Of a stretch of 64,000 bases of DNA, positions 13,532-35,519 are shown in pieces; the stretch's first letter is position 1, and each line of letters starts with the position of its first letter. A program made the position numbers and the translations under genes. The notes beneath the pieces are model-generated. The model was not told the origin of the DNA, made no database searches, and worked only from the letters and a program-made list of their open reading frames with translations. The stretch spans positions 3,410,001 to 3,474,000 of the forward strand of contig NZ_CP011868.1 of NCBI RefSeq assembly GCF_001294645.1, read 5' to 3'. The stretch is from Pseudonocardia sp. HH130629-09 (GTDB lineage Bacteria; Actinomycetota; Actinomycetes; Mycobacteriales; Pseudonocardiaceae).

Positions 13532-15184
13532 TCAGCGTGCCTGGGCGGGGTGCCGCTCGCCGAGGGTCCGGTTCGGCGCGCACCAGCCGCACGGGGTGAA
13601 CCCGAGCTCGACGGCCTCGCTGACGGGCAGCGGGATCACCGGGCGTCCGGTGAGGGCCCGGCAGGTCTGCACGTGGTAGCGGGGGTGTTCATCGATCACG
13701 AGCACCTCGTCGGGCAGGCGCGCGGCGAGTGCGGCGAGGGTGGGCTCGTGCGGCTCCTCCGGGGAGTCGCCGTCCGCGCCGGCGGCCCCGTCGGTCCCGG
13801 CCGCGTCGGCCGGACCGCCGCCGGTGTCCGTGCCGGCCCCGGCGGGCGCGCCCGCGGGAGCCCCGCCGCGGGGGTCGTCGACCGGCGCGCCGGATCCCGC
13901 GGCCGCGGCGCCCGCGGGCACGGCGGAATCGGGAAGGCCCGCACCGGACGGGGTGTTCGCACCGGCCGGTCCGCCGGAGGCACGGTCGGTGCCCCCGCCC
14001 GGGCCACCGGGTGCGCCCGCGGCGCGGGCTGCCGTGGTGGCGTCGGCCGCTGCGGGGGTGCGGGTCGCCGTGGTCGCGTCCGCCGCTCCCGCGTCCGCCG
14101 CTCCCGTGGCCGCCGCTCCCGTGGCCGCCGCTCCCGTGGCCGCCGCTCCCGTGGCCGCCGCTCCCGGGGCACGGTCCGCCGTGGTCGGGTCCACTCCCGC
14201 GGGAGCACCGTTCGCGGTGCTCGCGTCCGCTGCTCCCGGGGCACGGGTCGCGGTGGTCGCGTCGGACGGGCCGTCCGTGGCGCCCGGGCGGTCGGGTCCG
14301 GCCGCGGCCGGGGCGCCCGGGCCGTTGTTGCTCGGACCGGTGCCACTCGGGCCGGTGCCACTCGGGCCGGTACCCGAGCCGAAGCCCGGGTCGTCGGCGC
14401 CCTCGCGGGCACCGGAGCGCGCCGCCGGGTCCGCACCCGACGTGGTGTCGCGTCCGGCGGCGGTGCCGGCGACGACCGCGCCCGCGGCTGCCGCCGTCAC
14501 CGCCGACGCCGTGCCGACGCCGCCGGATCCGGTCGGACGCGAGTCGGTCGCCCGCGCTGCCTCGGCGGGCGGTTCCGCGGTGCCGGGATCGGCGGGGCCG
14601 GACCGCGCCGGGTCGCCGCCACGACCCGCACCGTCGTCCCCGTCCGCTCCCGCCGACGCGTCCACGCCCGCCGGGGCACCCGCGTGCGGGCCCACCCCGC
14701 TCGGGTCCACCACGTCCTCGGCCCCCGAATCGGTGACCGTGCGTGACGAAAGTCCACTCGAACGAGATGCGCCGGACGGTCCCTCCGCAGAGCCGGACGG
14801 CCGGATCACCGGCATCTGGATGGTCTCGTCGGTCGCATTGTGTGCGGCCTCGGGCGAACCCGAGGTCGCGCCACCGTCCGGCCGGACGACCGGCAGGACC
14901 TGCGTCGCGGGCTCCAAGTCGGCGCCGTGGCCCGCTTCCGTCGACGCCCGGTCGGCCTGGTCCGGCCCCGCGGGGGCACCGGTGCCACGACCGGAGGCAT
15001 CGGCCTCCGCCCGGTCACCGGCCTTCACCGCGGCACGGGTCTGCCACCAGTCGTAGGCGAGCACCAGGCCCGCGATCAGACTGATGACCACCGATGTCCA
15101 CGCCAGTGCCACCACGTGCAGGAACCATCCTGCGAGCAGCAGCACCAGCGCGATGACCACGAGGATCAGGACCAGCACCAGCAT
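13532..15184 (-). CDS. Membrane protein with long disordered linker and C-terminal Cys/His motif
   Basis: 550 aa, no named family recognised. Residues 1-43 hold two hydrophobic segments (MLVLVLILVVIALVLLLAGW and a second ending VLAYDWW). Residues about 55-480 are Ala/Gly/Pro/Asp-rich low complexity, with a tandem pentapeptide run (GAAAT). The last 60 residues are ordered and look conserved: EHPRYHVQTC then EAVELGFTPCGWC. His504, Cys508, Cys532 and Cys535 could bind a metal, in a layout that resembles Ada-type or nuclease-associated zinc sites; this is inference. It is downstream of wag31 by 88 bases in the dcw run, so a role at the cell pole or in wall growth is possible but unproven. Confidence 0.75.
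   Translation of the reverse strand: MLVLVLILVVIALVLLLAGWFLHVVALAWTSVVISLIAGLVLAYDWWQTRAAVKAGDRAEADASGRGTGAPAGPDQADRASTEAGHGADLEPATQVLPVVRPDGGATSGSPEAAHNATDETIQMPVIRPSGSAEGPSGASRSSGLSSRTVTDSGAEDVVDPSGVGPHAGAPAGVDASAGADGDDGAGRGGDPARSGPADPGTAEPPAEAARATDSRPTGSGGVGTASAVTAAAAGAVVAGTAAGRDTTSGADPAARSGAREGADDPGFGSGTGPSGTGPSGTGPSNNGPGAPAAAGPDRPGATDGPSDATTATRAPGAADASTANGAPAGVDPTTADRAPGAAATGAAATGAAATGAAATGAADAGAADATTATRTPAAADATTAARAAGAPGGPGGGTDRASGGPAGANTPSGAGLPDSAVPAGAAAAGSGAPVDDPRGGAPAGAPAGAGTDTGGGPADAAGTDGAAGADGDSPEEPHEPTLAALAARLPDEVLVIDEHPRYHVQTCRALTGRPVIPLPVSEAVELGFTPCGWCAPNRTLGERHPAQAR
14085..14159. repeat. 15-bp tandem repeat (pentapeptide-coding)
   Basis: Five 15-base units of the form GCTCCCGTGGCCGCC (plus-strand reading), the last four identical (14100-14159) and the first with small changes. 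On the coding minus strand each unit encodes a GAAAT-type pentapeptide. A degenerate sixth unit follows at 14160. Confidence 0.9.
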
Positions 15185-21789: not shown

Positions 21790-23205
21790 TCACCCCTCGC
21801 CGGCGAGCTCCCGCAGGATCTCCGGCCCGAGCGCGGTGACGTCACCGGCGCCCATGGTGATCACGACGTCTCCGTCGGTCGCGAGCGCGGCGATCGCCGC
21901 GGGTGCCCGCTCCCACGAGGGGGCACGGTGCACCCGCTCGGCCGGCAACGTCACCGCGTCGGTGATGAGCGCCGGACCGACGCCGGGTTCGGGATCCTCC
22001 CGGGCACCGTAGACGTCGAGCACCATCACCTCGTCCGCCAGCGACAGCGACGCGCCGAACTCCGCGGCGAACAGCCGGGTGCGGGAGTACAGGTGCGGCT
22101 GGAACACGACCAGGACGCGGCCGCACCGCCCGTTCCGGACCGGTGCGGCCTCGCGGGCGGCGCGCAGGGTGGCGGCGACCTCGGTGGGGTGGTGGGCGTA
22201 GTCGTCGTAGACGGACACGCCGCGGGCGCGGCCCTTGAACTCGAACCGGCGCTGCACCCCGCCGAACCCGGCGAGCCCCTCCAGCAGCACGGCGGGGTCG
22301 GCCCCGACGGCGCGGCCGGCGAGGAAGGCACCGAGCGCGTTGAGGACCATGTGCTCACCCGGGACGCCGAGGGTGAGCTCGTGCTCGGCGTCGCCGGTGC
22401 GGAACCGGGCGCGGCAGCCGGTGCCGTCCGGGGTGAACTCGAGCAGCCGGGCGTCCTGCCGGCCGGTCGCGGTGCGGCCGTAGCGCAGCACGGTGACGCC
22501 GGCCTGCTCCGCCCGCACGGCCACGGCCTCCGACCCGGGGTCGTCGGCGCAGGCGACCAGGGTGGCGCCGGCGACGAGCCGCTCCAGGAACCGCTCGAAC
22601 ACGGCCCGGTAGGCGGCCTCGTCGCCGTGGTGGTCGAGGTGGTCGGGCTCGACGTTGGTGACGATCGCGACCGACGGGGCGAACGCGGTGAACGAGCCGT
22701 CGCTCTCGTCGGCCTCGACGACGAACACGTCGCCGCTGCCGTGGTGCGCGCCCGACCCGGACACCGACAGGTCGCCGCCGATCGCGAACGAAGGGTCGGC
22801 CCCGGCGTGCTGCAGGGCGACGGTGACCATCGACGTCGTCGAGGTCTTGCCGTGCGTCCCGGCGACGGCGACCAGCCGTCGTCCCTCGGTGAGCGCGGCC
22901 AGTGCGACCGCCCGGTGGACCACGTCGTAGCCGCGCTCGCGGGCGGCGGCCAGCTCCGGGTTGGTCTCCCGGATGGCGGTGGAGACGACCACGGTCGGCG
23001 GGGACTCGCCGTCGTGCCGCAGGTGGCCGGCGTCGTGCCCGGTCTCGACGCGGGCACCGAGCGCACGCAGCGCGGTGACCGTGCGCGAGTCCCGCGCGTC
23101 GGACCCGGAGACCGTGGCCCCGCGGGCGAGCAGGATCCGTGCGATCCCGCTCATCCCGGCGCCGCCGATCCCGATGAGGTGGACGTGGTCGGAGAGCACG
23201 CTCAC
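21790..23205 (-). CDS. murC: UDP-N-acetylmuramate--L-alanine ligase
   Basis: Adds L-Ala to UDP-MurNAc, the first step of stem peptide synthesis, with ATP. The N-terminal Rossmann motif is HLIGIGGAGMSGIA. The ATP-binding P-loop is VAGTHGKTSTTSMV. VEADESDGSF, TNVEPDHLDHHG and DDYAHHPTEV are the other Mur ligase signatures. The length of 471 aa is normal. It begins with GTG inside the overlap GTGA with the murG stop, so translation is coupled. Confidence 0.97.
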   Translation of the reverse strand: MSVLSDHVHLIGIGGAGMSGIARILLARGATVSGSDARDSRTVTALRALGARVETGHDAGHLRHDGESPPTVVVSTAIRETNPELAAARERGYDVVHRAVALAALTEGRRLVAVAGTHGKTSTTSMVTVALQHAGADPSFAIGGDLSVSGSGAHHGSGDVFVVEADESDGSFTAFAPSVAIVTNVEPDHLDHHGDEAAYRAVFERFLERLVAGATLVACADDPGSEAVAVRAEQAGVTVLRYGRTATGRQDARLLEFTPDGTGCRARFRTGDAEHELTLGVPGEHMVLNALGAFLAGRAVGADPAVLLEGLAGFGGVQRRFEFKGRARGVSVYDDYAHHPTEVAATLRAAREAAPVRNGRCGRVLVVFQPHLYSRTRLFAAEFGASLSLADEVMVLDVYGAREDPEPGVGPALITDAVTLPAERVHRAPSWERAPAAIAALATDGDVVITMGAGDVTALGPEILRELAGEG

Positions 23206-26200
23206 CGGCCCGCCACCTCGAGGACGATGCGGGCGATCTTCTCGTCGGCCTCGCCGTGCCCGGCGGCGCGGGCGCGTCGGCCCATGGCCAGGGCCAGGTC
23301 GGGGTCGGTGAGCATCGGCATCAGTTCGTCGATCGCGCGGTCGCCGTTCATGTCCTCGTCCTGCACGAGCTTGCCGCCCCCGGCCTCGACGACCGGACGG
23401 GCGTTGAGCGCCTGCTCGCCGTTGCCGTGCGGCAGCGGTACGTACACCGCGGGCAGCCCGACGGCGGTCAGCTCGGCGACGGTGGTCATGCCCGAGCGGC
23501 CGAGGACGACGTCCGCGGCGGCGTAGGCGAGGTCCATCCGCTCGATGTAGGGCACCGGCACGTAGCCGGGCCGCGGGTCGGCGGGGGTGCCGCCCTTCCC
23601 GTACGCGTGCAGCACCGAGATGCCGCGCTCGGTGAACGCCGGCAGCGAGGCGGCGACCGCCTCGTTGAGCGTCCGGGAGCCCTGGGAGCCGCCGAAGACC
23701 AGCAGCACCGGGCCGTGCGGCGGCAGGTTGAAGTACGTCCGGGCCTCCGGCCTCAGCGACGCCCGGTCCAGGGAGGTGATCGAGCGGCGCAGCGGCATCC
23801 CGACCACCTCCTCGTTCGCGAGGCCGGTGCCGGGCACCGCGACGCAGACGGCGGAGGCGAACCGCGCACCGACCTTGTTCGCGAGCCCGGCGCGGGCGTT
23901 GGCCTCGTGCACGACGATCGGCACCCGGCCGCGGGCGCCCAGGTAGGCGGGCAGCGAGACGAACCCGCCGAACCCAACGACGACGTCGGCCTCGGCCGCC
24001 TCCAGCACCTCCCTGACCCGCTTCACCGCGCCGCGGACGTTGCCGGGGAGCTTGAGCAGGTCGGCGGTGGGCTTGCGGGGCAGCGGCACCGGCGGGATCA
24101 GCTCGAGCGGGTAGCCGCGGGCCGGGATCAGCTGGGTGTCGAGGCCCTTCTCGGTGCCGAGCGCGGTGATCCGGACCCCCGGGACGAGCCGGCGGATCGC
24201 GTCGGCGACGGCCAGCGCGGGCTCGATGTGCCCGGCCGAGCCACCCCCGGCGACGACGACCGACAGGCCGCCCGACACCGGGCCCGGTGCCTGTTCCCCC
24301 GCGGGACGCGTGGTGGCGGGGCCGCCGGTGCGGGTCGCGTCGGGGGTCGTGGGTCCGGGCACGCCGGGTCCCTGCACACCCTCGCCCTGCGGGCTCTGCT
24401 GCGGACCGGTCGGCTGCGGACCGGTCGGCTGCAGGCCGGGTGCCTGGGGGCCGGGTCCCTGGAAGCCCTGGGGCTGCGGGGCGCCGGGATCCTGGGGGTC
24501 CTGCGGAGCACCCGGGCCCTGCTGCCCGGGTACGCCGGGGCCCTGCCGACCGGGAGCGCCGGGTCCGCCGGGACCGTACTGGCGAGGGGCGCCGGGACCT
24601 GCCGGGCCGAACCCGCCCGGGCGGAACGGGCCGGTCCCCGCGGGACCCGGTCGTCCGGGGCCCGCGAACCCAGGCGCCGGGCGGCCGGGGCCCTGCTGTC
24701 CCGGGGCGGCCGGGCCGGGGCCCTGCCTGCCGGGGGCGTGGGGGTGGTGCGGACCGATGCCGGTCAGGGCGTTCGGCCCGGTCGGGCCGGGACGCCCGAA
24801 CTGCTGCGGGCCGGGTCCGCCGGGGACCGGGCCGGGACCCTGCGGACCGACGCCGGCACGGCCCGGCGCGTACGGGCCGGGGGCGAACCGGCCGTGCGGC
24901 GGAACCGGACCGCGGGGGCCGGTCGCCGACAGGGCGCCCGGCTCGGGCCCGCTCTGCGGACCGGTGGCGGTGACGCCGGCGTGCTCGCGCTCGTCGGGCC
25001 GGCCCGGGCGCTGCTGCGGAGCCGACGGGGGCCGGGCCTGCTGCCGCCCGGTGCCCGACGGCCCGTCCGCCGAGGCGGCGGCCGGGAGCGCTGCGGTGTC
25101 ACCGGCGGGCTGCGCGACGGTCGGCGGTTCGTCGGGGGCCGCCTGCTCGCCCCGGGCGTCGGCGACGGGCCGCTGCGGGCCGGTCCCGGCGTCGGGTCCG
25201 GACGCGTCGGCCGTATCCGGGCCGGTGCCGTTCGGGACGGCCCCGTTCGGGACGGCACCGTTCGTTCCGGTGCCCTCCGCATCGGCGCCCTGCGGGGCCG
25301 TGGTGTGCGGCGTGACGGTGGGGCCGGTGTCCGTCGCGGACCCGCCGGGGACGTCGGGTCCCGGACCGGCGGCGGGGCCGTCCTGCGCCGGGCCGGTGCG
25401 CGGCACGCCGTTCACCGGGTCGCCGGACCGGGTCGGGTCCGCGCCGTCCGCCGGGCCGCGGTCCGCCGGCGCCGATCCACCGCGTCCGGTGCTCGCGCGT
25501 GGGGTGAACAGGTCGTCGGCCGCACCGGGTCGCGCCGGCATCGCCGCGGGGGGCACCGGTCGCCCGGGCCGGCGACGCGGCAGGCCACCCGGCTGCCCTC
25601 CGGCGTCGTCGGAACGCGGGGCGCCGTTGCGGCCGCGCGGCCCACCGTCCGGGGCGCCGTCCTGGCCGCCGGTCACGGCGTTCGGGCCCTGCGGGGCGCC
25701 CTGGTCCCCGCCCCCGGCAGCACCGCGCGGAAACCCGTTGCGCGGGGCCCCGTTCAGCGGGGCCCCGTTCTGCGGAGCGCCGCTGCCCGGGGCGCCGTTG
25801 CGCGGAACGCCGTTGGAGGGGCCGTCGTTGCGCGGAGCACCGTTGAGCGGGGCCTCGTGGCGGTCGGTGCCGTCCGGCCGGGGCTCCTCGTGTGCGGCGT
25901 CGCCCACCGGCCGTGCCGCCCCGCGGTCGCCGTGCGCGACGCCGTTCGTGCCCTGCGACCCACTCCCGTTGAGCGGGCGGGCACCCGGGCGCCGGGACTG
26001 CGCGTGCGGGTCCCACCCGGTCCCGGGCAGCCGCTGCGGCCCGCGCACGCCCTGCGGCTCCCCCGGCTCCGCGGACGGCTGTCCCGAGGGGGGCTGTGGC
26101 GACGAGGGCTGCCGCGACGAGGACTGTGACGAGGGGGGCTGCGCGGGGGCGCTGAACAGGTCGGAACCCGACGGGGTCTCCGCAGGCCAGGCCGTGCACC

Positions 26201-26357
26201 CACCCGTGCCACCGGCTCCGTCGGGCCCGCCGAAGACCACGCCGTCCGGCCGGACCTCGTGGGGCCCGGGAGCACGGCCGCCCATGGTCGGACGCCGGCC
26301 GGGCTCCCGGCCCGAGCCGGTGCCGTCGTTCCCGCCGGTCTGATCCGTACCCGTCAC
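23202..26357 (-). CDS. murG: MurG lipid II synthase with ~690-residue disordered N-terminal extension
   Basis: Transfers GlcNAc from UDP-GlcNAc to lipid I on the inner face of the membrane. The catalytic core runs from about residue 690 to 1051: LSVVVAGGGSAGHIEPALAV (lipid-side G loop), VVGFGGFVSLPAYLG, VVHEANARAGLANKVGA, LLVFGGSQGSRTLNEA and GRSGMTTVAELTAVGLPA. The first 690 residues are Pro/Gly/Gln/Asn/Ala-rich, with repeated NGAPR-like and GPGAPG-like motifs and no membrane segment. The GTG at 26357 has GAGGGG 10 bases upstream and lies 57 bases after ftsW, which supports the long form. A GTG at 24278 would give a standard 358-aa MurG, but has a poor ribosome binding site and would leave a 2.1-kb gap in a tightly packed operon. 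Confidence 0.9.
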   Translation of the reverse strand: MTGTDQTGGNDGTGSGREPGRRPTMGGRAPGPHEVRPDGVVFGGPDGAGGTGGCTAWPAETPSGSDLFSAPAQPPSSQSSSRQPSSPQPPSGQPSAEPGEPQGVRGPQRLPGTGWDPHAQSRRPGARPLNGSGSQGTNGVAHGDRGAARPVGDAAHEEPRPDGTDRHEAPLNGAPRNDGPSNGVPRNGAPGSGAPQNGAPLNGAPRNGFPRGAAGGGDQGAPQGPNAVTGGQDGAPDGGPRGRNGAPRSDDAGGQPGGLPRRRPGRPVPPAAMPARPGAADDLFTPRASTGRGGSAPADRGPADGADPTRSGDPVNGVPRTGPAQDGPAAGPGPDVPGGSATDTGPTVTPHTTAPQGADAEGTGTNGAVPNGAVPNGTGPDTADASGPDAGTGPQRPVADARGEQAAPDEPPTVAQPAGDTAALPAAASADGPSGTGRQQARPPSAPQQRPGRPDEREHAGVTATGPQSGPEPGALSATGPRGPVPPHGRFAPGPYAPGRAGVGPQGPGPVPGGPGPQQFGRPGPTGPNALTGIGPHHPHAPGRQGPGPAAPGQQGPGRPAPGFAGPGRPGPAGTGPFRPGGFGPAGPGAPRQYGPGGPGAPGRQGPGVPGQQGPGAPQDPQDPGAPQPQGFQGPGPQAPGLQPTGPQPTGPQQSPQGEGVQGPGVPGPTTPDATRTGGPATTRPAGEQAPGPVSGGLSVVVAGGGSAGHIEPALAVADAIRRLVPGVRITALGTEKGLDTQLIPARGYPLELIPPVPLPRKPTADLLKLPGNVRGAVKRVREVLEAAEADVVVGFGGFVSLPAYLGARGRVPIVVHEANARAGLANKVGARFASAVCVAVPGTGLANEEVVGMPLRRSITSLDRASLRPEARTYFNLPPHGPVLLVFGGSQGSRTLNEAVAASLPAFTERGISVLHAYGKGGTPADPRPGYVPVPYIERMDLAYAAADVVLGRSGMTTVAELTAVGLPAVYVPLPHGNGEQALNARPVVEAGGGKLVQDEDMNGDRAIDELMPMLTDPDLALAMGRRARAAGHGEADEKIARIVLEVAGR

Positions 26358-26414
26358 GCTCTCGTGCCCCTCGCGTCGTCCGTCGTGTCCGCTTCCACCC
26401 GGAGTGGGAGCGCC

Positions 26415-27695
26415 CTAACGCGCCGCCCACCGCGACACCGGGACCGGTGCGCGGTAGGGCTGCGGCAACGGCAGGCGCAGCAGCTTCGCCAGCCGCCCCT
26501 GCCCGTCCTTCCGGAGCGCGGCGACCGCCTCCGGCTCGTGCCGGGCCGCGTTCGTGAGCAGCCCGAACAGGAACATGGTCACCACCAGCGAGGTACCGCC
26601 GGAGGAGATCAGCGGGAGCTGCAGCCCGGTCACCGGCAGCAGTCCCACGACGTACCCGATGTTGATCGAGGCCTGGACAACCAGGCCCGCCGTCGACGTC
26701 GCGACGACGATCCGCAGCCACGGGTCGGTGTTGCGGGCGGCGATCCGCATGCCGGTGTAGGCCAGCGTCGCGAACAGTGCGAGCACCGCTCCGGCCCCGA
26801 CGAGCCCCAGCTCCTCGCCGATGATCGCGAAGATGAAGTCGTTGTGGGCGTTGGGCAGGTAGTCCCACTTCGCCCGGCCCTGGCCGAGCCCGACGCCGAA
26901 CAGGCCGCCGTCGGCGAGCGCGTACAGCGCCTGCGTCGCCTGGTACGCCGGACCCAGCGGGTCCGCCGACGGCGACAGGAACGCCGTGATCCGGCTGGCC
27001 CGGTAGCCGGCGGTCAGCCCGAGGATCACCGCACCGGCCAGGCCGCCGCCCGCGATCAGCGCGAGCAGCTTCACCGGGGCACCGCCGAAGTACAGCAGCG
27101 CGAGCATGATGATCCCGACCGAGATCGTCATGCCCAGGTCGGGCTCCAGCACGAGCAGCGTGAAGATCACCAGCGTCACCGGCACGACCGGGTTCAGCGC
27201 GTGCTTCCAGCGGTGCATCACCGCGCGGCGGGCGGCCAGCACGTGCGCGCCCCACAGCGTCAGCGCGATCTTCGTGCCCTCCGACGGCTGCAGCGACACC
27301 GGGCCGAACGCGAACCACGACCGGGCGCCGCCGCGCAGCACGCCGATCCCCGGGATCAGCACCAGGACCAGCGCGACCAGCCCAATGATCAGCAGCACCG
27401 GTGCCGCGGCCCGCAGGCGTCGCGGCGGCACACGCAGGCCCACGTAGAACAGCACGAGCCCGACCCCGCAGAACATCAGCTGGCGGGTGAACACCGAGTA
27501 CGACGAGCCGTCGCCGACCGACGACGCCGACAGCACCATCACCAGCCCGAACAGGGTCAGCAGCCCGAAGACGCCGAGGATCAGGTGCAGCGAGGTCAGC
27601 GGCCGGCGCAGCCAGCGCCGCAGCCGCCGCACGGCCCCGCTGGCGCCGGTGACGGCGACCTGGCCGAGCGTGCGGTCCGGCGCCGCCGGGCTCAC
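26415..27695 (-). CDS. ftsW: Septal peptidoglycan polymerase FtsW (SEDS)
   Basis: SEDS-family glycosyltransferase that polymerises lipid II at the septum together with FtsI. The protein (426 aa) has about 10 membrane segments. Family signatures are RSWFAFGPVSLQPSEGTKIA, LEPDLGMTISVG, GLGQGRAKWDYLPNAHNDF and LPLISSGGTSLV. The GTG at 27695 overlaps the murD stop by 4 bases (GTGA). The C-terminal tail after NAARHEPEAVAALRKDGQG is cytoplasmic and basic. Confidence 0.97.
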   Translation of the reverse strand: MSPAAPDRTLGQVAVTGASGAVRRLRRWLRRPLTSLHLILGVFGLLTLFGLVMVLSASSVGDGSSYSVFTRQLMFCGVGLVLFYVGLRVPPRRLRAAAPVLLIIGLVALVLVLIPGIGVLRGGARSWFAFGPVSLQPSEGTKIALTLWGAHVLAARRAVMHRWKHALNPVVPVTLVIFTLLVLEPDLGMTISVGIIMLALLYFGGAPVKLLALIAGGGLAGAVILGLTAGYRASRITAFLSPSADPLGPAYQATQALYALADGGLFGVGLGQGRAKWDYLPNAHNDFIFAIIGEELGLVGAGAVLALFATLAYTGMRIAARNTDPWLRIVVATSTAGLVVQASINIGYVVGLLPVTGLQLPLISSGGTSLVVTMFLFGLLTNAARHEPEAVAALRKDGQGRLAKLLRLPLPQPYRAPVPVSRWAAR

Positions 27696-31713: not shown

Positions 31714-33432
31714 TCACGTCGCCGCCCGGATCGCCGCCACCAGCTCGTCGGTGTCGTCGAACGGGTACTTGACGCCGTTGATCTCCTGGCCCGCCTCGTG
31801 GCCCTTCCCGGCGACCACCACGGCGTCGCCGGGGCGGGCGGAGCGGACCGCGTAGACGATCGCGCTGCGCCGGTCGCCGATCTCGATGACGTCGCCGCGG
31901 GCGGGCTCGGCGAACGCGCCGTCGAGCATCGCGCGGCGGATCGCGCCGGGGTCCTCGCTGCGGGGGTTGTCGTCGGTCACGACGAGCACGTCGGACCGGA
32001 TCGCGGCGGCGGCGCCCATCAGCGGGCGCTTGCCGGTGTCGCGGTCCCCGCCGCAGCCGAGCACGGTGATCACCCGCGCGTGCGGGCGGACCTGGCGGCG
32101 CAGCGCGTCGAGCAGGGCGGCGACGGCGGCGGGCTTGTGCGCGTAGTCGACCACGCCCAGCCAGGGCTGACCGGCGTCGACGCGCTGCATCCGACCCGGC
32201 ACCGACGCCCGGGCGAACCCGGCCGCGGCCGTCTCCGGGGCGATCCCGTCGGCGTCGAGCACGGCCAGCGCGACGAGCGCGTTCGCGACGTTGTAGCGGC
32301 CGGGCAGGCTCAGGGTGACCGGCACGGCGAGCCCGCCGGGGCCGACCGCGGTGAAGGTCTGGGTGCCGTCGGGGTGGGCGGTGAGGTCGCGGACCGTCCA
32401 GGTGGCGTGCGGGCCGCGCGGTTCGGAGGAGACGGTGACCGCGTCCCGGTGGCGGGCCGCCAGCCGACGGCCCCACTCGTCGTCGACGCAGACGACCGCG
32501 TGCCGCGCGGCCTCCACACCCGCCCCGCCACCGCCGAACAGCCGGGCCTTGGCCTCGAAGTAGTCGGTCATCGTGGGGTGGAAGTCCAGGTGGTCCTGCG
32601 ACAGGTTGGTGAAGGCCCCTGCGGTGAACCGGGAGCCGCCGACCCGGCCGAGCTCGAGCGCGTGGCTGGAGACCTCCATGGCCACGTCGGTCACACCGGC
32701 CTCGACCATGACCGCGAACAGTGCCTGCAGGTCCGGCGCCTCGGGGGTGGTGAACGCGCTGGGGAGCGCCCTGGCCGGGCTGCCGGGCACCTGCACCCGG
32801 GTCCGCACGGTGCCGAGCAGGCCGGTGGCCCGCCCGGCGGCGGTCAGGCCCGTCTCCAGCAGGTGCGCGACGGTCGTCTTGCCCGAGGTGCCGGTCACCC
32901 CGAGCACCCGAAGCCGGGCGGTGGGCTCGCCGTAGACGGCGGCCGATACCGGCCCGAGGACCTCGCGCGGGTTCGGGTGCACCAGCACCGGGAGCCGGGA
33001 GTGCCGGATCTCGGCGCGGTCCGCGCCGGCGGCGTCGGTGAGGATCGCGCCGGCGCCGGCGGCAATGGCCTGCGCGGCGAAGTCGGCGCCGTGCGCCCGA
33101 GCACCGGGCAGCGCCGCGAACAGGTCGCCGGGGCGCACCGAGCCCGCCCGCAGGGTCGCGCCGGTGACGGTGTGCGGCCCGGCCGCGGGGTCGAGCAGGG
33201 GGCCGGGCCCGCTGCCCGCGGTGCGCGGGTTCAGCTCGGCACCGGCGAGCCGCCCGAGCAGCGCGACGTCGACCGGGCGCACCTGCGAGGGGCGCTCCGG
33301 CAGCGACTCGAGCGGTCCCGCCACGTCACCCGTCCCCGTCCGGTCGCCGACCACGCCATCCGGCCCGCCGTCGTGCGCGGTTCCGCCGGTGCTCCGTGAG
33401 CGGGCGGTGGCTGCGGTGTGGAGGTCGGGCAC
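31714..33432 (-). CDS. murE: UDP-MurNAc-dipeptide--meso-diaminopimelate ligase
   Basis: Adds meso-DAP to UDP-MurNAc-L-Ala-D-Glu. Motifs: GVTGTSGKTTVAHLLE (P-loop), SAFTTPEAPDLQ, EVSSHALELGRVGG, NLSQDHLDFHPTM and VTDDNPRSEDP. The DNPR motif is the meso-DAP-specific form, which fits a DAP-type wall. The GTG at 33432 gives 572 aa, with about 60 Gly/Thr/Ser-rich residues before the conserved part; a start at or near 33352 is also possible, since no strong ribosome binding site settles the matter. A 260-base gap separates it from ftsI. Confidence 0.93.
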   Translation of the reverse strand: MPDLHTAATARSRSTGGTAHDGGPDGVVGDRTGTGDVAGPLESLPERPSQVRPVDVALLGRLAGAELNPRTAGSGPGPLLDPAAGPHTVTGATLRAGSVRPGDLFAALPGARAHGADFAAQAIAAGAGAILTDAAGADRAEIRHSRLPVLVHPNPREVLGPVSAAVYGEPTARLRVLGVTGTSGKTTVAHLLETGLTAAGRATGLLGTVRTRVQVPGSPARALPSAFTTPEAPDLQALFAVMVEAGVTDVAMEVSSHALELGRVGGSRFTAGAFTNLSQDHLDFHPTMTDYFEAKARLFGGGGAGVEAARHAVVCVDDEWGRRLAARHRDAVTVSSEPRGPHATWTVRDLTAHPDGTQTFTAVGPGGLAVPVTLSLPGRYNVANALVALAVLDADGIAPETAAAGFARASVPGRMQRVDAGQPWLGVVDYAHKPAAVAALLDALRRQVRPHARVITVLGCGGDRDTGKRPLMGAAAAIRSDVLVVTDDNPRSEDPGAIRRAMLDGAFAEPARGDVIEIGDRRSAIVYAVRSARPGDAVVVAGKGHEAGQEINGVKYPFDDTDELVAAIRAAT

Positions 33433-33692
33433 AGGGCCGGAGGTTACCGACCGGCACGGGCCGCCCCTCCCCCCGGTCGGACGCCCCCGACCGCTCGCGG
33501 AGGCGGTCACGGCGGGCGGCGGACAGACGACCGGCACCCGGCCGTCCGACCAGCCGGATACGGCCATCCGGCGCAGGTTCCGGTCCGGTGGGCGGGCCGC
33601 CGGGCAGGGCGCACGGCGGCCCGGCCGGCACCCGTAGGGGTGGGCAGCGGCCGGGACCGCCCGACGCAGCCGGACCGCACCCGGCCGCGCCG
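33433..33692. other. Intergenic region between ftsI and murE
   Basis: A 260-base gap with no supported gene. In a cluster where most gaps are under 100 bases, a promoter for the murE-murG half is possible here, but I saw no clear promoter or hairpin. Confidence 0.4.
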
Positions 33693-35519
33693 TCACCTGA
33701 TCTGCAGGGTCTGCACCGGGGCGGGCGTCGTCTGCACCGGCACCGCGTTGCGCTGGGCCAGGTAGGAGGCGATGTCGTGGAACAGCGGGGCCGCGCTCGT
33801 CCCGCCCTTCGGGGCGTCGAGCATGATCCCGATCACGAACCGCGGATCCTGGGCCGGGAGCATCCCGGCGAAGGTGATCCAGTACTGGGAGCGCGAGTAC
33901 GCCCCGGTCGCCGGGTCCACCTGCTGGGCGGTGCCGGTCTTGCCCGCCACCTCGTAGCCGGGCACCGCGGCGGCGGGCCCGGTGCCGGACTGGCCGTGCG
34001 CCTTCTGGGTGACGGCGGTGAGCATCGTCCGCAGCGTCTGCGCGGTCTGTGGCGACATCACCTGCACCGGCTCGGGTGCCTCGGTCGGCACCCGGACGCC
34101 GTCCGGGCCCGTCGTCGCGGCGACGATCCGCGGCGGGATCCGGACGCCGTCGTTGGCGATGGCCTGGTACATCCCGGCCATCTGCAGCACGGTCATCGAC
34201 AGCCCCTGCCCGATCGGCAGGTTGCCGAAGGTGGAGCCGGACCAGGTCGCGCGGGCCGGGACGCGCCCACCGCTCTCGCCGGGCAGCCCGACACCGGTCT
34301 TCTGCCCGATGCCCATCTTCGCGAGCATGTCCGAGAAGCGGTCCTCGCCGACCTTCTGCGCGGTCATCAGCGTGCCGACGTTGGAGGACTTCGCCAGCAC
34401 ACCGGTCATCGTGTAGTGGTCGAGGCCGTGCTCCCAGGCGTCCTTGATCGTCCGGTCGGCGACCTCGATGCTGCCGGGCACGGCCAGCACGTCGTCGGGC
34501 TTGGCGACGCCGGCCTCCAGCGCGGCGGCCATGGTGACCACCTTGTTGACCGAGCCGGGCTCGAACGGCGTGGTGACGCCCTTGTTGCCCAGCGTGTTCG
34601 GGTCCGCGGACAGCAGCTGCGCCGGGTCGAACGAGGTGTTGTCGGCGAGCGCGAGCACCTGCCCGGTCGCCCGGTCGAGGACGACGGCCGACCCGCTGCG
34701 CGCCTCGGCGCGGCCCGCGTAGTCGGCCAGCATCCGCTGCACCTGGAACTGCAGGTCGGAGTCGATGGTGAGCTGCACGTCGGAGCCGGACACCGCGGCC
34801 TGTTCGGAGCGCACGCTGCCGGGGATGACGGTGCCGCTGCCCTCGGCGGTGTCGGCGATCTGGAAGCCGTCGCGCCCGGCGAGCAGGGCGTCGTCGGAGG
34901 ACTCCAGGCCGATCCGGCCGATGAGCTTCTGCGCGTCGGCGCCCCACGTCGCGGCGCCGATGATGTTCGAGGCGAGCGTCCCGTTCGGGTACTGGCGCGC
35001 CTCGCGGCTCTCCTCGGCGATCTCCGGGAACTGCCTGCGCAGGTCACGGGCGGGCCCGGGGTCGACCGCGGTGGCCATCACGACGTAGCCGCGGTCGCTG
35101 TTCAGCGCCCGCTTCAGCTCCTCGGGGTCGCCGTGGGTCACCGCGGCGACGGCCTCGGCCATCCGGTTCTTGTAGGCGACCGCGTCCGCGCCCTTGGTCG
35201 AGTTGATCAGACGCGGGTTGGTGACGAGCGCCTTGGACTCGGTGGAGAAGGCCAGGACGGCGCCGTTGCGGTCGGTGATGGATCCGCGCTCGGCCGGAAC
35301 GACGATCCGGCTGGCGCGCTGCTTCTCCGCGTCCGCGGTCAACGTGCCCGCCTGCACCGTCTGGACGACGACGAGCTTCGCCCCGGACACCAGCAGCAGA
35401 GCGGCCAGCGCCACCCAGGCCAGGCGCAGCCGGAACCGCGGGTCGTCGGCCGGGGACCGGCGCCGTCCGCCCCGTGGACCCTGCCCCCGCGGCCGGGGGC
35501 GCGGCGGCGCGTAGACCAT
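33693..35519 (-). CDS. ftsI: Septal transpeptidase FtsI (class B penicillin-binding protein)
   Basis: Cross-links septal peptidoglycan. A basic, Pro-rich cytoplasmic tail (residues 1-32) precedes one membrane helix (LAWVALAALLLVSGAKLVVV). The dimerisation domain begins with VVPAERGSITDRNGAVLA. The penicillin-binding motifs are SVNK (Ser323 nucleophile, Lys326), SSN (378-380) and KTG (527-529). 608 aa, normal for actinobacterial PbpB/FtsI. Its ATG overlaps the ftsL stop by 1 base, so the two are translationally coupled and the proteins work with FtsW. Confidence 0.97.
   Translation of the reverse strand: MVYAPPRPRPRGQGPRGGRRRSPADDPRFRLRLAWVALAALLLVSGAKLVVVQTVQAGTLTADAEKQRASRIVVPAERGSITDRNGAVLAFSTESKALVTNPRLINSTKGADAVAYKNRMAEAVAAVTHGDPEELKRALNSDRGYVVMATAVDPGPARDLRRQFPEIAEESREARQYPNGTLASNIIGAATWGADAQKLIGRIGLESSDDALLAGRDGFQIADTAEGSGTVIPGSVRSEQAAVSGSDVQLTIDSDLQFQVQRMLADYAGRAEARSGSAVVLDRATGQVLALADNTSFDPAQLLSADPNTLGNKGVTTPFEPGSVNKVVTMAAALEAGVAKPDDVLAVPGSIEVADRTIKDAWEHGLDHYTMTGVLAKSSNVGTLMTAQKVGEDRFSDMLAKMGIGQKTGVGLPGESGGRVPARATWSGSTFGNLPIGQGLSMTVLQMAGMYQAIANDGVRIPPRIVAATTGPDGVRVPTEAPEPVQVMSPQTAQTLRTMLTAVTQKAHGQSGTGPAAAVPGYEVAGKTGTAQQVDPATGAYSRSQYWITFAGMLPAQDPRFVIGIMLDAPKGGTSAAPLFHDIASYLAQRNAVPVQTTPAPVQTLQIR

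Follow-up and report, generated by a model that had tools for sequence, protein, structure and literature searches.

The murG gene of Pseudonocardia sp. HH130629-09 runs as one very long open frame, of which the enzyme core takes up the last third. Is the stretch ahead of the core a genuine part of the protein or a chance frame in GC-rich DNA and, if it is genuine, what might it do? Lipid II, the last cytoplasmic precursor of the wall, is the product of MurG, an essential enzyme that is usually small and conserved. A sequence-only reading of the window (the whole stretch of 64,000 nucleotides analysed here) had described a single frame of 1051 codons starting at a GTG with a GAGGGG ribosome binding site, and this description proved exact. 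Clade restriction and a conserved motif set, both missing from that reading, are added here by comparison with relatives.

An intact MurG core behind a long extension

The genes and gene parts concerned are the following:

23202-26357, minus strand: full-length murG gene, GTG start at 26357, 1051 codons (1051 aa), start conserved in nine species
24264-26357, minus strand: N-terminal extension, predicted to be disordered, residues 1-698 of MurG
23202-24263, minus strand: MurG catalytic core (Glyco_transf_28 and Glyco_tran_28_C), residues 699-1051, from the alignment to E. coli MurG 1f0k
21790-23205, minus strand: murC, overlapping the end of murG by 4 nt
26415-27692, minus strand: ftsW, neighbour upstream of murG

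The gene lies in the dcw cluster, in the order ftsW-murG-murC-ftsQ-ftsZ. Both MurG glycosyltransferase domains, N and C, were recognized by Pfam from residue 700 onward (108.4 and 101.5 bits; cut-offs 26.2 and 22), and the core aligned over its full length with E. coli MurG (PDB 1f0k; E 7.2e-50, query residues 4-356), with the GGGSAGH, HExNxxxGxxN and GGSQG segments inside the alignment. With the NCBIfam murG equivalog model, TIGR01133, the core alone (23202-24278, minus strand) scored 248.1 bits against a cut-off of 250.25; the MurG of a tail-less sister species was also below it (247.1 bits), so that the low score stems from the core and not from the tail. Automatic naming may miss the core, given a score just below the cut-off. 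Judged by the Pfam domains, the alignment to 1f0k and the gene order, the 1051-aa protein is MurG, the predicted lipid II synthase, with an intact and normal core, and it resembles E. coli MurG (PDB 1f0k/1nlm; family TIGR01133) in that core, in having both Pfam domains in order and in its dcw place between ftsW and murC. The difference lies at the N-terminus, since solved MurG chains have about 365 aa and begin at the catalytic domain, whereas the protein of Pseudonocardia sp. HH130629-09 has 698 residues ahead of it.

Neither Pfam nor NCBIfam searches gave a match in the first 693 residues, and AlphaFold2 left residues 1-698 without any predicted helix or strand (pLDDT ~30-45), although with a shallow alignment of ten sequences this low confidence is consistent with disorder as support and not as proof. 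For the core the model returned the MurG-like alternation, at a confidence that was modest given the same shallow alignment. On these predictions the extension is most likely intrinsically disordered, and its earlier description as long, disordered and devoid of an enzyme domain stands. It had also been called Pro/Gly/Gln/Asn-rich, which holds for Gly (22.5%), Pro (20.5%) and Gln (6.9%), while Asn is outside the nine commonest residues and Ala (12.6%) and Arg (7.4%) had been omitted; Thr accounts for 6.3%. A tandem-repeat finder located an array within the extension:

25734-25862, no strand assigned: 15-nt tandem array encoding a five-residue repeat of NGAPR type, from which length changes probably arise

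The extension is constrained as protein

Local GC is 83%, and antisense frames of 957 and 735 codons are open over the same DNA as murG. Long chance frames being common at such a GC content, the open murG frame alone is weak evidence, and coding has to be shown by comparing relatives. Open-frame length as a proof of coding was dropped, in view of the two opposite-strand frames and of a doubtful murE frame in the same window. The latter (31714-34947, minus strand) has 1077 codons but no Mur_ligase match before residue 597, and its upstream part, which overlaps ftsI, is likely a chance frame that calls for caution in annotation.

Besides the window, the MurG frame is open from the same start in eight further Pseudonocardia species, with extensions of 681-981 aa and no stop in any of the nine. 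The sequence-only reading had named stops or an unrelated gene upstream of the core in relatives as what would speak against it; none was found within the clade. When the three closest species are aligned, 49 of the 51 gaps have a length divisible by three and the other two sum to 45, a count that is weaker than it seems and is partly explained by the repeats, since many of their units also have such lengths (often 15 nt). The frame-specific pN/pS is free of this weakness: for close pairs it was 0.45-0.56 in the MurG frame versus 1.24-1.73 in the shifted frames. In the MurG frame, dN/dS was 0.40-0.50 in the extension versus 0.10-0.18 in the core. Taken together, both ratios argue for a protein under moderate constraint.

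The start itself is shared. The Shine-Dalgarno sequence directly ahead of the GTG reads RAGGGGCACGAGAGC in the extension-clade species, with a near variant, CACACGAGC, in one of the nine, and the same GTG followed by MTGTD(Q/H)(T/S)GG is common to all of them. In the nine species, leader indels upstream of the GTG break the frame, while downstream of it the frame is kept. The extension had been said to occupy the whole gap between ftsW and the core; it takes up nearly all of it, and what remains is a leader of 57 nt that comes first and contains these elements:

26367-26372, minus strand: Shine-Dalgarno GAGGGG, 9 nt upstream of the GTG; RAGGGGCA conserved in nine species
26390-26412, minus strand: stem-loop just past the ftsW stop

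Stems scoring at least 7 pairs occur at the latter place in eight of the nine species, with differing sequences; the copy in the window is imperfect, with one mismatch, and the folding energy was no better than that of shuffles in most of the nine. It is a possible RNA stability or attenuation element, to be taken as a lead only. By the comparison of relatives, the extension is translated in the MurG frame from the shared GTG and fused to an intact core.

A feature of one clade

MurG was searched in 62 Pseudonocardia genomes and the gap between ftsW and the MurG core was then measured. Most Pseudonocardia have a MurG without a tail. The gap measures 2102-3001 nt in the species of the window and in eight others (G042, G066, G058, G054, G044, G059, G043 and G013); these nine form one clade with an SH-aLRT support of 100, so that a single gain of the extension suffices. 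P. endophytica (G001) has a gap of 744 nt and an extension of 239 aa, and in the two nearest sisters the gap measures 60 nt (G057) and 9 nt (G074). In the remaining Pseudonocardia measured, where the gap ranges from -9 to +259 nt, the extension is absent. A search for MurG was also made in 150 genomes of the order, with gaps measured only in those fetched; no comparable tail was found in the fetched genomes outside the genus, the largest gaps being 681 and 438 nt, both in one genus. These two were rejected as long tails, for they open just 101-130 codons and hold no like sequence. In the literature that was searched, a MurG tail of this kind was not described.

Two other origins were considered and set aside. 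An assembly error is contradicted by the same arrangement in nine genomes. Fusion with a gene from elsewhere in the genome was rejected because the extension, searched against its own genome, matches itself only, the murG start region is unique there, and the DNA pattern of one motif (M4, below) is confined to the extension clade. On this comparative evidence, the extension is a real, single-clade, protein-level feature of MurG, and the case shows how, at a very high GC content, a real low-complexity extension can be distinguished from a frame that is open by chance.

Conserved motifs between variable linkers

The alignment of the nine species contains islands of conservation in a fixed order:

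26331-26357, minus strand: M1, MTGTDQTGG, residues 1-9; nine of nine species, mean pairwise identity 0.95
26280-26294, minus strand: M2, RPTMG, residues 22-26; nine of nine, identity 0.96
26229-26255, minus strand: M3, VxPDGVVFG, residues 35-43; nine of nine by degenerate pattern, identity 0.79
26004-26045, minus strand: M4, RGPQRLPGTGWDP(H/Y), residues 105-118; nine of nine, identity 0.90
25497-25562, minus strand: M5, PxPP(G/A)(A/S)M ... LFTP, residues 266-287; identity 0.82
24957-24977, minus strand: M6, GVTATGP (weaker), residues 461-467; pattern in seven of nine, identity 0.64
24264-24338, minus strand: M7, PATTRPAGE with the core junction, residues 674-698; nine of nine, identity 0.76

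The islands are 64-96% identical, the linkers 42% with 26% gaps, and the identity expected by chance from composition is 0.14; seven patterns were present in all nine species, with a shuffle expectation of 0-0.003 per sequence, but the patterns and island limits were picked after viewing the alignment, so these figures are descriptive and do not amount to a test. Evolution of the linkers is fast, and 15-nt tandem repeats occur in them, as expected of loosely constrained sequence. The M4 DNA pattern occurs once in each of eight clade genomes, at the murG locus, while the ninth carries a Ser variant, and it is absent from all other genomes among the 62 Pseudonocardia. GPVPPxAM, within M5, is also found in the tail of P. 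endophytica (shuffle frequency 0.0002), so that the two tails may be related.

What the extension may do

The reading that we favour, with a probability of roughly 0.5, is that the MurG tail is a long flexible tether with short putative binding motifs that positions lipid II synthesis. Fast-changing Gly/Pro linkers connect motifs at set places (the N-terminus, around residues 22-43, 105-118 and 266-287, and the core junction), and these motifs would bind at least one partner in the growth or division machinery; docking would hold lipid II synthesis near the site of wall building, and the catalytic core would work unchanged at the membrane, the linkers letting it reach its lipid substrate. Partner binding, tethering and the identity of any partner are inferred; the anatomy of folded enzyme, variable linkers and fixed motifs fits a tether. 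The conserved motifs could be used as bait for finding partners. A more tentative possibility is that this MurG has been turned into a multi-motif scaffold, whose tail would, in one clade, assemble several partners in wall growth where lipid II is made; if so, the clade would control where the wall precursor is made in a way that other MurG proteins lack.

Known systems offer partial likenesses. The C-terminal disordered linker of FtsZ and other divisome tethers also join a disordered stretch of variable length to short conserved motifs, a likeness of anatomy only, and the FtsZ of the same cluster has 154 aa after its core, ending in DVPPFMRR. However, the FtsZ linker connects a polymerising domain to a terminal peptide, whereas the MurG tail forms the N-terminus of a glycosyltransferase, has 4-6 times the length and is found in one clade. 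In mycobacteria, related actinobacteria with polar growth, MurG is enriched at the poles and in a membrane domain (PMC7864634) and Wag31 pulls it down (PMC12097788). By analogy, both reports support the idea that spatial control is a genuine theme for MurG, and wag31 and sepF belong to the same cluster; tethering of the tail to Wag31 or SepF is plausible, if putative. Unlike that of the extension clade, the MurG of the other genera measured begins beside ftsW and is tail-less; with the mycobacterial enzyme already pulled down by Wag31, the tail is probably not needed for this contact. Mur enzyme fusions and MurG scaffolds, such as Bordetella MurE-MurF with MurG (PMC6420597), share the notion that MurG may be a platform for cytoplasmic wall enzymes, while the Pseudonocardia tail holds no second enzyme and no domain.

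The main rival to a tether is a largely neutral expansion, in which slippage of GC-rich five-residue repeats would have lengthened a tolerated N-terminal leader once the ftsW/murG overlap ended, the product being kept because it was harmless. The Gly/Pro/Ala repeats with 15-nt periods are what such a history would leave, as are the variable length, the linkers just 42% identical, the intermediate form of P. endophytica and the short gaps of the sisters, and most of the extension length may be tolerated filler. Against it, the motif islands are conserved in the same order in nine species, none of which has lost the extension, purifying selection is frame-specific over the stretch as a whole, and adjacent disordered regions have not expanded. 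In our comparison, motif conservation and retention speak against a purely neutral history, and we regard neutral expansion as somewhat unlikely.

It is improbable that the tail acts through bulk Arg/Gly/Pro/Gln composition instead of specific motifs, phase-separating or crowding MurG alone or with other wall-precursor enzymes. The tail is of low complexity and nearly uncharged (net charge -2 in the window), with 7.5% order-promoting residues, and multivalency is possible since Bordetella MurG forms oligomers and binds MurE-MurF (PMC6420597). Nevertheless, aromatic residues are scarce in it (14 F/W/Y in 693), Lys is absent, and a pure effect of composition needs no conserved motifs.

Still less probable is that the working enzyme arises from an internal start or by proteolysis, the upstream stretch being a translated leader or a separate product. 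The window and four relatives do have an internal GTG 5 codons ahead of the core (SVVVAGGG), but it lacks a clear ribosome site, and the other four of the nine have no in-frame start closer to the core than 33-51 codons upstream, which makes the full-length product the consistent one; moreover, selection acts on the upstream stretch at the protein level, and its conservation extends as far as the junction. Finally, an artefact, either a chance open frame in non-coding DNA of a kind common here at 83% GC or a misassembly, is refuted by the arrangement in nine species with its conserved start and Shine-Dalgarno, in-frame indels and frame-specific pN/pS, and we give it next to no weight.

Neighbouring proteins

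The FtsZ tail (142-178 aa) is similar with and without the MurG extension, and the FtsQ N-terminal stretch and the spacing of MurC, MurF and MraY are alike in both groups of species. SepF and Wag31 show no length change and no strong divergence in the extension clade, with linkers like those of tail-less species. FtsZ, FtsQ, SepF and Wag31 not being inflated, disordered growth is specific to MurG within the cluster; a wider growth of disordered parts was rejected, being absent in these four and in one low-complexity neighbour. A matching change in Wag31 or SepF was likewise sought and none was seen in the clade, so that the sequence points to neither in particular as partner of the putative tether.

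Two further observations concern the surroundings. In L138 (G013), about 1.28 kb lie between ftsQ and the ftsZ core, versus 157-368 nt in the other species compared. Downstream of wag31, at 13532-15184 (minus strand), the window encodes a protein of 550 aa that has a hydrophobic segment at its N-terminus, a repeat-containing low-complexity linker of about 420 aa rich in Ala/Gly/Thr, and a conserved segment with CGWC at its C-terminus. The eight other Pseudonocardia checked have both ends, joined by linkers of 292-450 aa.
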